A DNA stretch of 21,537 nt from a virus, in IMG/VR virus record IMGVR_UViG_3300009605_000186, positions 1 to 21,537 of that record; one strand, 5' to 3'. A model generated the notes under the pieces. It was not told where the DNA came from. It ran no database searches and saw only the letters and a program-made list of their open reading frames with translations. Below are positions 1 through 7,141 of the stretch, piece after piece (the stretch's first letter is position 1; each line of letters opens with the position of its first letter). A program made the translations under genes and the position numbers.

Positions 1-386
1 GATTGTCTAAGGCCCGCGCCTGCTATAACTATTTTAACACCCTGATTAAGTAATGCCCTAAGAATAGTATATACTGCGAGCATGGTTGTTTTAGCCCCAC
101 CTCTAGCCGCCAAAATCATAGGAAGTCTCTTGGTCCACAGAATTTTTAATATTGACATTTGATATGGAAATAGGTCCATATTTAAAAGGTGTTTTGTAGG
201 AAACTGTAGATAGTTTTCGTTCATACAAAGATTAATAATATCTTGAGGAACGTCTTTGTACTTTGTGGAAACAGAAAGGGGATTACTAACCTCTAAATTA
301 TAAGTATCTCCTATTTCCAGATAACTATTTTCTAGAAATTCACTTTTGTGTTCTTCCGTCCAGTGGTTTTGAAACTCACTCGTCAT
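1..386 (-). CDS. terL: Terminase large subunit, N-terminal part (truncated by window edge)
   Basis: This is the ATPase half of the DNA-packaging motor that drives phage DNA through the portal into the prohead. Only the first 128 codons lie in the window. Visible features are an adenine-binding-type FPYQ at residues 73-76, a Walker A P-loop AARGGAKTT at 93-101, and a following beta-strand/turn (VIAGAG, 120-125) like the segment after Walker A in TerL proteins. Walker B and the C-terminal nuclease domain would lie off the left edge. The ATG at 386-384 is preceded by GGAGG 9 bases upstream and overlaps the end of the ERCC4-nuclease gene by 11 bases, so the two are translationally linked. It is the last visible gene of a six-gene minus-strand operon and points away from the portal and capsid genes, whereas TerL is usually co-directional with portal. 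Family assignment is strong; the remainder is unseen. Confidence 0.9.
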   Translation of the reverse strand, partial: MTSEFQNHWTEEHKSEFLENSYLEIGDTYNLEVSNPLSVSTKYKDVPQDIINLCMNENYLQFPTKHLLNMDLFPYQMSILKILWTKRLPMILAARGGAKTTMLAVYTILRALLNQGVKIVIAGAGLRQ

Positions 387-939: not shown

Positions 940-1288
940 TTGATCCCTCCGACTGTCTAATAGTCCTATTGTTTCTTGATGCTATTGTCTGTAGCATATC
1001 CTCATACTTTTCTTCTTTGCCAGTTATTTTTTTGTGACATTCTTGACAAAGAGTAATACCGTTTAAAGGCTCGGTTCTTAACCCTTTATTGGAACTGTAT
1101 TTTCTTATATGGTGTACCTCTAGCCTTCTTTTTTTGTCGCATCCAGGATACTGGCAACAAAAAGAATCTCTCACTAAGACCGATCTCCTAAACCTATTAT
1201 AGGAGGGGTTTGTCAGACGAGAGTATACTTTCCTTTTCCTTGATAACGAACGTCCTTTATTCTTAGAAAAATCTCTCTTTCGAGGCAT
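854..1288 (-). CDS. HNH endonuclease next to terminase
   Basis: A 144-residue HNH-family nuclease. The zinc-binding Cys pairs are C45/C50 and C81/C84. The core has the HH pair at 59-60 (VHHIRKY), Asn76 in LNGITLC, and His85 in CQECHKKI. Both ends are strongly basic. HNH genes beside terL are common in cos-type phages, and HK97 gp74 is known to act with terminase in genome cutting, so a packaging role is the best guess. A homing endonuclease is the alternative, but the tight overlaps on both sides do not look like a recent insertion. Its start lies 26 bases inside gmd and has no clear Shine-Dalgarno, so it may depend on translational coupling. Its last ~28 codons, a Lys/Arg-rich tail, overlap the ERCC4 gene by 86 bases. 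Confidence 0.85.
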   Translation of the reverse strand: MPRKRDFSKNKGRSLSRKRKVYSRLTNPSYNRFRRSVLVRDSFCCQYPGCDKKRRLEVHHIRKYSSNKGLRTEPLNGITLCQECHKKITGKEEKYEDMLQTIASRNNRTIRQSEGSNVSFQNGKHKKTSRKKRAKKYPRRKYYY

Positions 1289-2273
1289 CCATAGTATTAT
1301 ACACTACACCAGATAATGTTTCCAGATCGCTCTCATACATCTCCTTGAGGAGACTCTTCCAATCATAAGAGGTGGTCCAGTTGAGAACTTTTTTAGCCTT
1401 GCTAGCGTCTCCGCATAAATACGGAACTTCTGCTGGTCTCATATATTTCTCGTTTATCTCGTAGACGTTATCAAAATCTAAATCAGCCAATCCGCAAACG
1501 TATTGTATGGCCTCTTTTACTGTGGCCGTTTTTCCTGTTGCTATAACAAAATCGTCTGGAGTGTCTTGCTGTAACATTAGGTGCATAGCCTCAACATAAT
1601 CACGAGCATGACCCCAGTCTCTAACAGCGTCTATATTGCCCATTTTTAATTTATCTTTTAATCCTAATTTTATACCGGCTATACCATCAGTTATTTTTCT
1701 TGTAACAAATTCTTTTCCTCGTCTTGGGCTTTCATGATTAAACAGGATTCCGCAACAGCCAAAAATCCCATAAGCTTCCCTATAAATGTTTACCATATTA
1801 TGTGCGTATAGTTTGGCTGCACCATAAGGACTTCTTGGAACAAACAAAGATTCTTCATTCAGGATCGTTCCATCTTCCACCTTTCCATACAGCTCTGAAG
1901 TAGACGCTTGATAAAATTTTGTCTTTGGTGAATGTTGTCGTATTGCCTCAAGCACTGCTGCTATAGCATATCCGTCTGTCATTACTGTAGTAAGAGGTTC
2001 CTTAAAACTTTGACCAACATGTGACATGGCAGCTAAATTATAATATTCATCTGGCTGTATAGAGTGAACCAAATCAGTTACTCCACTAGCATCACAAATA
2101 TCCATTGTGACACTGTGAAAGCTAGAATTACTTTCACAGAAATTCATAAAATTATTTTCTCTAGTACAACGGCGCTGTACTCCATATACCTCATACCCCT
2201 TGCCCAACAAAGACTCGCATAAATACGAGGCATCTTGTCCTGGACAACCTGTAACAATAGCTTTTTTATTCAT
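1263..2273 (-). CDS. gmd: GDP-mannose 4,6-dehydratase
   Basis: A 336-residue short-chain dehydrogenase/reductase of extended type. It converts GDP-mannose to GDP-4-keto-6-deoxymannose, the branch point to GDP-fucose, GDP-rhamnose, perosamine and colitose. Visible motifs are the NADP-binding TGCPGQDASYL (8-18), YNLAAMSHVG (78-87), STSELYG (124-130) with the catalytic Thr125/Glu127, YGAAK (150-154) with catalytic Tyr150/Lys154, NHESPRRG (179-186), RDWGHARDYVEAM, and RPAEVPYLCGD near the end. Length is normal for the family and all key residues are present, so it should be active. The ATG has a strong AAAGGAGAA site 6 bases upstream and overlaps the preceding gene by 8 bases. It is an auxiliary metabolic gene inside a packaging/transcription operon. 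No reductase or glycosyltransferase partner is in the window, so the final sugar is unknown. Confidence 0.95.
   Translation of the reverse strand: MNKKAIVTGCPGQDASYLCESLLGKGYEVYGVQRRCTRENNFMNFCESNSSFHSVTMDICDASGVTDLVHSIQPDEYYNLAAMSHVGQSFKEPLTTVMTDGYAIAAVLEAIRQHSPKTKFYQASTSELYGKVEDGTILNEESLFVPRSPYGAAKLYAHNMVNIYREAYGIFGCCGILFNHESPRRGKEFVTRKITDGIAGIKLGLKDKLKMGNIDAVRDWGHARDYVEAMHLMLQQDTPDDFVIATGKTATVKEAIQYVCGLADLDFDNVYEINEKYMRPAEVPYLCGDASKAKKVLNWTTSYDWKSLLKEMYESDLETLSGVVYNTMDASKERFF
1296..1305 (-). promoter_or_regulatory. Promoter-like AGTGTATAAT inside the end of gmd
   Basis: Reading leftward on the minus strand this is AGTGTATAAT followed by A, a perfect match to the motif found upstream of several plus-strand genes. 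It lies in the last codons of gmd (Val-Tyr-Asn). The HNH start is only 13 bases downstream of the first T of TATAAT, so a transcript from here would be nearly leaderless for HNH, but it could carry the ERCC4 and TerL genes. A coding coincidence is possible. Confidence 0.35.
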
Positions 2274-4032: not shown

Positions 4033-4380
4033 ATGAGTGAATTTCAAAAGATTTTAGAAAATTTGGCAAAAACCTCTAAGGGTTTTAAGAGAGCATTGGC
4101 TGCAGAGCATGATTTTGAGGGTTTTCCTACAGAGGGGCCTCCTTCTGGGGAACCAGCAGAATATAATCTTACTCTAGATGAGGTAGTCGAAAGGCTAGAA
4201 GGCTTTATTGATGATTGGACAGATACAGAACATCAATATTATACGGACGTAGAGCTGCTTTTGGATGAAATCCAAGGTGGTGAGGCTGAGATTCCTATGG
4301 ATATTGAGGGCCTTGAGATACCCGGAGGCGCCGGATACGGTAGACGTAAACGCTGCGGCTGCGGCAAAAAAAAACACTAA
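4033..4380 (+). CDS. Unknown 115-residue protein, likely N-terminal part of a frameshift product
   Basis: I do not recognise this protein. The N-terminal half is helical (SEFQKILENLAKTSKGFKRA), followed by a Pro/Gly-rich turn, an acidic helical region, and a short basic Cys tail GRRKRCGCGKKKH. The ATG has GGGA ~8 bases upstream and a promoter-like element 30 bases upstream. The stop comes directly after a run of nine A (4366-4374) coding for Lys-Lys-Lys. In the -1 frame the reading stays open through this stop for 200 more codons (entry 4374-4976). It lies just before portal, a spot often used for small head or packaging genes, but no function can be assigned. Confidence 0.7.
   Translation: MSEFQKILENLAKTSKGFKRALAAEHDFEGFPTEGPPSGEPAEYNLTLDEVVERLEGFIDDWTDTEHQYYTDVELLLDEIQGGEAEIPMDIEGLEIPGGAGYGRRKRCGCGKKKH
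4366..4374 (+). other. Nine-A slippery run: candidate -1 frameshift site
   Basis: The zero-frame codons GGC-AAA-AAA-AAA-CAC-TAA carry a nine-A homopolymer two codons before the stop. One -1 slip by the Lys tRNAs, or one extra A added by RNA polymerase, moves translation into the open frame that continues to 4976. No strong stimulatory stem-loop or upstream Shine-Dalgarno is visible. A one-base homopolymer undercount in sequencing would look the same. Confidence 0.5.
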
Positions 4381-4976
4381 AGAAAATTTTCAACCGCATA
4401 GTTGGGGAAACTCCTATACCTGTAAAAAACCCTACAGAACAAGAAATCACCCAAGAATTAATTTGTTCAATGGATTCGGAATGTCCGCCCGATTATCGTT
4501 GTGAAGATGGACGGTGCATAGACAATAATGAGATAATATGGACATTTGGTAAATGCTGTGAAAGCGTTGTTCCGTTTCAATGGTGGCTTGATAGGCCAGG
4601 ACCAAATTCTATGATGGGCGATTGTGATAAAGGTGGAGCTTTATGGACAGCCCCTCCTGAAATCGGGGGGACCTGTATAGACAATAAAGTATGCAGCGAC
4701 GCTTATCGTCCGTTCGATAGATTATTTCCAGATAGAAGCTGTGGGGGGGATAATCCTGTTTCGTATGATGGTGGAGGACCACTAGGTATTGTCACCAATT
4801 GGATGAGTGCTTGCAATGCGCACGTTTACGAAGAAGGTAATGGCCCCAATAATCAAGGTGACCATGGCAAATGCCGGTTGGCTCCGCTTTGTCAAGATGC
4901 TGTCAACGCAATGGCTGCGGCTGGACATTATTCTAAGATAAGCTGTGGGCTTGATCCTATAGTCAGTCCACAATAG
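4374..4976 (+). CDS. Cysteine-rich protein, probably expressed as -1 frameshift extension of the 4033 gene
   Basis: This frame is open from 4350 to the TAG at 4974-4976. It has no Shine-Dalgarno-supported start: the first ATG (4470) has none, and it would cut off the first Cys of a repeated-looking C-x5-C-x5-C-x4-C unit (CSMDSEC, then YRCEDGRC). Read from the slip point it gives about 200 residues with 14 Cys, plus several Trp and Gly-rich segments. This suggests a disulfide- or metal-stabilised fold, unusual for a phage protein made in the cytoplasm. Such Cys-Asp-Gly-Cys units occur in extracellular proteins, so a virion-surface role is possible. The fused product would be about 314 residues. 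A separate non-ATG start (for example ATT 4386) is the alternative. A terminator follows at 5016. Confidence 0.6.
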   Translation, partial: TLKKIFNRIVGETPIPVKNPTEQEITQELICSMDSECPPDYRCEDGRCIDNNEIIWTFGKCCESVVPFQWWLDRPGPNSMMGDCDKGGALWTAPPEIGGTCIDNKVCSDAYRPFDRLFPDRSCGGDNPVSYDGGGPLGIVTNWMSACNAHVYEEGNGPNNQGDHGKCRLAPLCQDAVNAMAAAGHYSKISCGLDPIVSPQ

Positions 4977-5015
4977 TGCGTTAACGGAGTGTGATACGAA
5001 TAGTTTATATTAACA

Positions 5016-5040
5016 GCGGCCACTTATTGTGGTCGCTTTT
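5016..5040 (+). terminator. Rho-independent terminator before portal
   Basis: An 8-bp stem GCGGCCAC / GTGGTCGC (one G-T pair) with a TTATT loop is followed by TTTT. It lies 40 bases after the Cys-rich ORF and upstream of the portal promoter-like element, so it separates these transcripts. Confidence 0.8.
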
Positions 5041-5052
5041 AAATTATTGTAT

Positions 5053-5067
5053 GTGTATGACTATAAT
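5053..5067 (+). promoter_or_regulatory. Promoter-like element for portal (variant)
   Basis: GTGTATGAC is immediately followed by TATAATAGG. The TATAAT (5062-5067) is 37 bases before the portal ATG, matching the spacing of the other elements, but the GTG prefix is attached to the preceding TATGAC. Either hexamer could be used, so this is a weaker match. Confidence 0.4.
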
Positions 5068-5098
5068 AGGAATGGAGTACCATTGGAATTAAACTATT

Positions 5099-7141
5099 AT
5101 GAGTGAAGAACAAGAAGAAAAAAAACAACCGTATTATTCTACAACAAACCCAGATAAACAGAAGGGTTTGGAAAACTTATCTACAGCATTAGACGCCACC
5201 AGACACGTTCAAGGCGCATATTATAGCGATGTAGAAGACGGCATATCTGTAAGACCTCCGTTTACAAGAAAACATTATTCAAGATTTAGACCAGGAGAGG
5301 CTATACCAACTGATCCTGTAGATATAATGACCGCGTGCAGGGGGGCATATGAGAGCGTTGGCATTATTCGGTCTGTTATTGATCTTATGACAGAAATTGC
5401 TATAGAGGGCCTCGAGATTGTTTGTGAGGACGACGATATTGAGAAGTTCTATGTGAACTGGTCTAAGAGGGTTTCTTTAACAGAGAGAGCAGAGAGATTC
5501 GCCAATCACTTCCTTGTTGAGGGCAACGTGGCTGTTCGTAGAAGGATTGGAACAATTGAAACTTCTGAAGTTAGAAAGATGAAAAAGTCAACCTCGCGCA
5601 AAGATCGTAAGAAAACTCAGCCAGGGAAAATCCCACTTGAATATGTTTTTTATGACCCACAATCAATAAACTTGTTGGGTGGTGATCTTGCAATTTTTTC
5701 AGGTATAAAAAAATGGGGTCTTAAAATAACCAACGTTCAAATGAAGGAGCTGGTCAAGGTATATAAAAGCGATTCGTCGTTTAAGAAAAGTTTACCAGAA
5801 GAGATAGTAGAGATATTAGAGAAGGGTTCGAAGAAAAGGACTAGGACAACAACTGGGGATATTATACTACCAATTCCAGAAGACAAGCTATACGTTGCTC
5901 ATTATAAAAAGAAGGACAGCGAAACTTGGGCTAAGAGTTTTATTTTCAGCATTCTTCATGATGTTACATATAATGAAAAATTAAGGTTGGCAAAGATCAG
6001 CGCCTTAGATAGTTGGTATAACTCGGTTAGGATTTGGAAATTAGGAGACCATAAAGAAGAGATTCTTCCAGACGTAGGTTCTATTTCAAAGCTAGCTGCC
6101 ATACTTGAAAACCATAGTGGAGGAAATCTTGATATTATCTGGGATTCAATGTTAGAATATAGTCAGTATTTTCCGCCCATAGAGAAACTTGAAAACTTTA
6201 CAGAGAACTATGAATCTATGCTTTTAGGTCTTGGTATACATAAGTCCCTTATAGGTGGAACAGAAAGCATATCAGGAACAGCAAATGCATTTACTGGTCT
6301 TCGCAATATGATGAAGAGAATAGATGCCGTAAGAAGATCTATCACCGCTTGGCTCGAAGAGGAGATTAGTATAATTAATGACAATTTGGGGTTTAAGATC
6401 ACCCCATCTATTAGATTCAGTATAAACAATCTGTTTGACCAAACGGCTTACTTTAGACTTCTTGTAGACCTTAATGATCGCAATATTATCTCTAACAGAA
6501 CCATCATAGAGAAGATTGGCGAGATGCATAGTATTGAAGATGCACGTTTGGCTTCTGAGAGAGAAGCAAGGGAGGTGGGAGACATGATGCCTAAATATAG
6601 TCCATTCATACAGAGTGAGGTTCCCGAGTCTAACTTTGAGAAGGAGTTGGAGCTAAAAGATATGGGAGGGTCTAGTGGCCCATCTATTAAAAACTCCGGT
6701 GAGCCTGCGCAAGACAATGAGCCTACAAAGAGGATGGGAAGACCTCCTGGAAGCAAAGATACTATAAAAAGAAACAGGAGATATAGAAGCAAGGCTTCCG
6801 ATATAATTTTAGGTGATCGTATTCAGGACAAGATTGATCCTATTATAGATCAGCATTATTTGGTGTATAATAGTTTGAAAAACAAAAGAGAATTATCTTC
6901 GGCTCAAAGAAAAGAGCTTGATAAGATAAAGCTGCAGGTGCTTTCGTGTTCAGAAAATACCGACATAGAGTCTTATGAAGATATTGAGAAGATTTTAAAT
7001 AGTGCTGACGATTATATGTCTAAAGCATTTCTTGGGAGATTTGAAGAGAACGTAAGGGGTTCAGGTCCCAATTTAAATCAAGATGATATTAAGAGCATTA
7101 AGAGTTTAACTTTTGCCGAAATGAGAGAATACATACAATGA
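5099..7141 (+). CDS. Portal protein
   Basis: A 680-residue protein with the features of phage portals, the dodecameric ring at the capsid vertex through which TerL drives DNA. Early segment GIIRSVIDLMTEIAIEGLEI is a typical portal N-terminal helix. A crown/clip-like region follows, and the central LLGLGIHKSLIGG-TESISGTANAF-LRNMMKRIDAVRRSI pattern is the conserved portal stretch before the channel helix. The C-terminal ~150 residues are hydrophilic and probably disordered at first, with a basic RMGRPPGSKD (545-554) like an AT-hook. The ATG has no strong ribosome site; a GGA lies ~12 bases upstream. The stop overlaps the next gene (ATGA). It follows a terminator and a promoter-like element, so it starts a new head-gene transcript. 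Confidence 0.8.
   Translation: MSEEQEEKKQPYYSTTNPDKQKGLENLSTALDATRHVQGAYYSDVEDGISVRPPFTRKHYSRFRPGEAIPTDPVDIMTACRGAYESVGIIRSVIDLMTEIAIEGLEIVCEDDDIEKFYVNWSKRVSLTERAERFANHFLVEGNVAVRRRIGTIETSEVRKMKKSTSRKDRKKTQPGKIPLEYVFYDPQSINLLGGDLAIFSGIKKWGLKITNVQMKELVKVYKSDSSFKKSLPEEIVEILEKGSKKRTRTTTGDIILPIPEDKLYVAHYKKKDSETWAKSFIFSILHDVTYNEKLRLAKISALDSWYNSVRIWKLGDHKEEILPDVGSISKLAAILENHSGGNLDIIWDSMLEYSQYFPPIEKLENFTENYESMLLGLGIHKSLIGGTESISGTANAFTGLRNMMKRIDAVRRSITAWLEEEISIINDNLGFKITPSIRFSINNLFDQTAYFRLLVDLNDRNIISNRTIIEKIGEMHSIEDARLASEREAREVGDMMPKYSPFIQSEVPESNFEKELELKDMGGSSGPSIKNSGEPAQDNEPTKRMGRPPGSKDTIKRNRRYRSKASDIILGDRIQDKIDPIIDQHYLVYNSLKNKRELSSAQRKELDKIKLQVLSCSENTDIESYEDIEKILNSADDYMSKAFLGRFEENVRGSGPNLNQDDIKSIKSLTFAEMREYIQ
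6862..6871 (+). promoter_or_regulatory. Promoter-like GGTGTATAAT within portal gene
   Basis: TTTGGTGTATAATA here is identical to the elements before 11426 and 14987 over the core, but it lies in portal codons (Leu-Val-Tyr-Asn). No start codon lies 30-46 bases downstream; the next genes start at 7138 and 7319. It could be an internal promoter for the portal-to-protease genes or a coding coincidence. Confidence 0.35.

Follow-up and report, generated by a model that had tools for sequence, protein, structure and literature searches.

The window analysed here is a 21,537-nt (21.5 kb) virus record (IMGVR_UViG_3300009605_000186) from a tailed phage, in which rightward structural genes begin at about 4 kb and the leftward genes encode a terminase fragment, an ERCC4-type nuclease, an HNH endonuclease and a GDP-mannose dehydratase. 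The portal gene (5099 to 7141, plus strand) has a weak match to the PHROG 'portal protein' and was used as the anchor to find relatives. The left end of the window (1 to 245, minus strand) resembles the large terminase subunit found in distant relatives (57 to 73% identity) and lies on the strand opposite to the portal gene, whereas many relatives carry terminase immediately 5' of the portal gene on the same strand. The GDP-mannose 4,6-dehydratase gene (1263 to 2273, minus strand) is a strong match (Pfam E 1.7e-108) and adjoins the HNH and ERCC4-type nuclease genes.

Upstream of the portal gene lies ORF1 (4033 to 4380, plus strand, as are all of the features of this unit described below), a gene of 115 codons. 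Its product is predicted to form four helices, has the tail GGA...CGCGKKKH and is modelled at a mean pLDDT of only 43. The 3' end of ORF1 reads GGC AAA AAA AAA CAC TAA, which bears out the initial annotation in placing the end of this gene just after a nine-A run. The run (A9, 4366 to 4374) is read in the zero frame as AAA AAA AAA, is bounded by C on either side and is the proposed slip site for either the ribosome or RNA polymerase; a slippery site is thus present just before the zero-frame TAA stop (4378 to 4380). A9 is the sole homopolymer of at least nine of any base in the 21,537 nt, and at this frame junction it reaches the length of eight or more that we took from PMC3711429 as the threshold for poly-A transcriptional slippage. 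By itself the slippery word says little in favor of frameshifting, given that the window's genes contain 47 in-frame slippery heptamers and that three consecutive AAA codons would be expected 0.37 times across these genes.

The -1 frame is open across the ORF1 stop, as had been claimed, and runs from 4350 (after a TAA at 4347 to 4349) to a TAG at 4974 to 4976. Counted from CTA at 4377, ORF2 (4377 to 4976) comprises 199 sense codons and the TAG and encodes 14 Cys, and a -1 slip within A9 yields a fusion computed at 314 residues, matching the approximate length first suggested. The open frame is beyond chance: the ORF2 frame stayed open in none of 3000 dinucleotide shuffles of 4377 to 4973, and no frame in them was open for more than 186 codons. 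Because its codon score is near zero (0.03 vs 0.12 to 0.48 for the other genes), ORF2 may be foreign or weakly expressed. Its four-Cys unit CSMDSECPPDYRCEDGRC, with the spacing C-x5-C-x5-C-x4-C (4464 to 4517), falls in the only part of ORF2 that is confidently modelled, about residues 31 to 50 of a single-sequence model with a mean pLDDT of 43, and the first Cys of the unit, at 4464, does precede the first ATG, at 4470, as the initial annotation had observed. The Cys region has weak Pfam matches to the EB module, the lustrin Cys-rich repeat and DUF7107 (E 0.016 to 0.14), all of which have a four-Cys spacing like that of ORF2 residues 30 to 47. However, these matches score 12.9 to 15.9 bits against curated cut-offs of 24 to 27, and by that test ORF2 is a member of none of the three families. 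No homologue of ORF2 was found in the viral contigs, phage records, genome contigs, 33 portal-relative records, PHROGs, Pfam or PDB; the empty result of the short exact peptide pattern searches is informative for close relatives only. A scan with the pattern QWWLDRP returned ten loci, and the best two, L038 and L042, share CQVYDPPQWWLDRPDP within ORFs of 248 to 252 aa, which we did not accept as homology because the pattern had itself picked out the match. An Rfam search found nothing.

One close relative, L001 (IMGVR_UViG_3300006736_002917), carries an ORF1 with 75% identity across the aligned part and a portal protein that is 86% identical over the first 372 residues. The L001 ORF1 ends in ...GCGCGKK-TAA, compared to ...RCGCGKKKH-TAA in the window, so that the two stops lie at most two residues apart, and it ends there without an extension. 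On sequence grounds, then, ORF1 is a small but complete tailed-phage gene with a genuine, native stop, and the A run is part of the ORF1 tail given that the L001 protein likewise ends in Lys-Lys. At the junction L001 has A6 and then T, with neither A9 nor ORF2; the comparison of relatives that had been proposed for a conserved A run and frame relation thus came out negative in the sole close relative found. The common sequence ATAGTTTATATTA resumes some 40 nt after the L001 ORF1 stop and is followed by a terminator hairpin and the portal leader. In the window the terminator-like hairpin (5015 to 5037) comes after ORF2 and closes a single unit made up of ORF1 and ORF2, while its counterpart in L001 lies directly after ORF1. 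ORF2 is therefore a lineage-specific piece of about 600 nt between the ORF1 stop and the terminator, either gained here or lost in L001. The window and L001 agree at all 61 nt of 5053 to 5113, which run into the start of the portal gene, despite a 14% difference in the portal protein; this block contains TATAAT and a mini-frame, MTIIGMEYHWN, and is probably the promoter and leader. A TAA at 1575 to 1577 of L001 breaks the portal frame in place of a sense codon of the window (ENYESMLLG), which is either an error or a real nonsense change. Further scans for close relatives by portal and ORF1 returned only L001, and a genome scan returned none. The portal protein has 33 more distant relatives at 51 to 60% identity, none with a match to ORF2 and, among those searched for it, none with a match to ORF1. 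Two distant relatives, L006 (4530 to 4877) and L031 (4612 to 4908), have a small pre-portal gene whose product is conserved in an N-terminal segment and contains Cys in its C-terminal part; these genes were considered as ORF1 relatives and proved unrelated by BLAST. The spot before the portal gene seems to change its small genes often.

The initial annotation held that ORF2 lacks a supported start, and this held for the conventional codons: no ATG, GTG or TTG occurs in the ORF2 frame before ATG 4470 (4470 to 4472), which is ORF2 residue 32, lies two codons after the Cys at 4464 and has an anti-SD duplex of only -0.7 kcal/mol, compared to a median of -6.0 kcal/mol for the window's genes. It had overlooked an ATA at 4416 behind a GGGGA. 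Position-specific base composition favors the ORF2 frame in the 93 nt before ATG 4470 (4377 to 4469), at -178.3 bits vs -184.5 and -187.6 for the other frames, a lead of 6.2 bits over the next; applied to the window's genes, on which it was trained, this test chose correctly for 122 of 133 stretches. The preference is also seen over 4416 to 4469 and amounts to 25 bits over the next frame in 4470 to 4973. The codon scores upstream of ATG 4470 have the same sign as the base-composition test, in an ORF that is atypical. The four weak Pfam matches span the first Cys and start before ATG 4470, and none was left after trimming to that codon, while the pLDDT of the ORF2 model exceeds 50 from residue 27, again 5' of ATG 4470. 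Translation therefore probably enters ORF2 upstream of ATG 4470, given the base composition, the Pfam trimming, the model confidence and the weak anti-SD energy at this ATG. Entry would be either by slippage on A9 or at an unusual start codon, for which ATA 4416 is the best candidate; CTG 4353 and CTG 4359 were rejected, as both lie inside ORF1 and are without a strong SD. A gene caller would report ORF2 as a 168-residue gene from ATG 4470, with 13 Cys and minus the first Cys of the domain.

We hypothesized that slippage on A9 yields the 314-residue fusion beside the 115-residue ORF1 protein, a proposal to which we give about even chances. The zero-frame codons AAA AAA AAA would permit tandem -1 re-pairing, with the ribosome on A-AAA-AAA, and an RNA polymerase adding an A to make ten would lead to the identical fusion. 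By either path, a fraction of translation would pass the TAA of ORF1 and continue into ORF2, so that the Cys-rich part would be carried on a minority of ORF1 copies in an extended form in which a flexible linker (about 27 residues) joins ORF1 to the four-Cys unit and the remainder of ORF2. Nine-A frameshifting was reportedly assayed in E. coli, and, provided that the count of nine is right and the host resembles E. coli in its behavior, some of the fusion is likely to be produced. In that reporter a nine-A cassette gave 40% frameshifting, while seven A's gave 10% and eleven gave 63% (PMC3711429); transcription slippage on nine A's is established in bacteria (PMC5009743), and such runs slip at tens of percent (PMC3711429, PMC5009743). 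No stimulatory structure is predicted downstream of A9 (fold z -0.61) and no internal SD core occurs 8 to 14 nt 5' of it; neither is necessary for polymerase slippage, and the absence of a predicted downstream structure suits polymerase slippage or slippage on a bare A run. The claim of a programmed -1 frameshift thus stands in part: the native ORF1 stop, the lack of a conventional start 5' of the four-Cys unit, the upstream coding signal and the slip-prone A9 agree with it, but the signs of selection, a conserved frame relation and a stimulatory structure, are absent. That the slip takes place, how often, and with what function on the virion is our inference.

Three other explanations were weighed. 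ORF2 could be a separate gene on the same transcript that starts at ATA 4416 or ATG 4470, perhaps aided by ribosomes finishing ORF1, a possible but on the whole unlikely arrangement. The stretch from GGGGA (4404 to 4408) to ATA (4416 to 4418) has an anti-SD duplex of -5.5 kcal/mol, against the gene median of -6.0, with a spacing of seven bases, and a start at this ATA keeps all 14 Cys; poor SD sites also occur in some of the window's genes. However, ATA start codons are very rare, and the frame preference goes on upstream of this one, but only slightly, by 2.1 bits over 39 nt (4377 to 4415), while a start at ATG 4470 removes the first Cys of the unit. We considered it slightly less probable that the A run is miscounted or varies in length within the population, with ten or seven A's making ORF1 and ORF2 one plain frame in all genomes or a part of them and phase variation being conceivable. 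Runs of nine identical bases readily acquire indels, and a survey attributed most orphan single frameshift cases to sequencing errors or indels (PMC3711429). A plain miscount is nevertheless disfavored because the zero-frame stop would then match the position of the L001 stop by accident, for which we estimate a chance of about one in six.

In the last explanation, ORF2 was acquired and is still open but is little expressed or in decay, and any slippage fusion is noise. The lack of a homologue in the collections searched, the absence of ORF2 from the closest relative and its near-zero codon score are consistent with such a segment, but the 199 codons that no shuffle kept open, the 25-bit frame preference and the presence of the Cys-rich unit in the confidently modelled part all argue against it, and we consider it improbable. 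Returning to the slippage fusion, an orphan Cys-rich module would lie in the wrong frame behind a small head-region protein, and a bare A9 would attach it to a fixed proportion of that protein, perhaps for display on the virion surface; we regard this extended scenario as doubtful, and only the position of the ORF1 gene would place its product on the virion.

One proposal, repeated in a review (PMC5009743), is that mobile domains of frameshift-extended phage coat and tail proteins first insert out of frame by accident and are later exploited through frameshifting. If the A9 fusion is made, domain acquisition would have been caught early here, with the segment present, out of frame, in one of two close phages and reachable through an A run grown from the lysine tail of its carrier, which would favor an origin of frameshift-made phage extensions in insertion accidents. 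Known genes with poly-A slippage include the magnesium chelatase family (PMC3711429), Citrobacter tssM (PMC4256274) and endosymbiont genes (PMC5009743). These are alike in having a long A run at the frame junction, but they have conserved junctions in relatives or experiments behind them, and ORF1-ORF2 has neither. Among phages, C-terminal extensions of coat or tail proteins by frameshift are described for T3/T7 gene 10, Lactobacillus phage A2 and Listeria phages A118, A500 and PSA (PMC5009743). The extension proposed here differs from these in being rich in Cys and in showing no hint of an Ig-like domain, and its carrier is a small protein encoded before the portal gene. The A9 fusion would be at most a further case of a known phenomenon, sharing with the extended coat and tail proteins a short form that ends at its own stop, a nearby shift site and a domain in another frame that is carried as a minority fusion.
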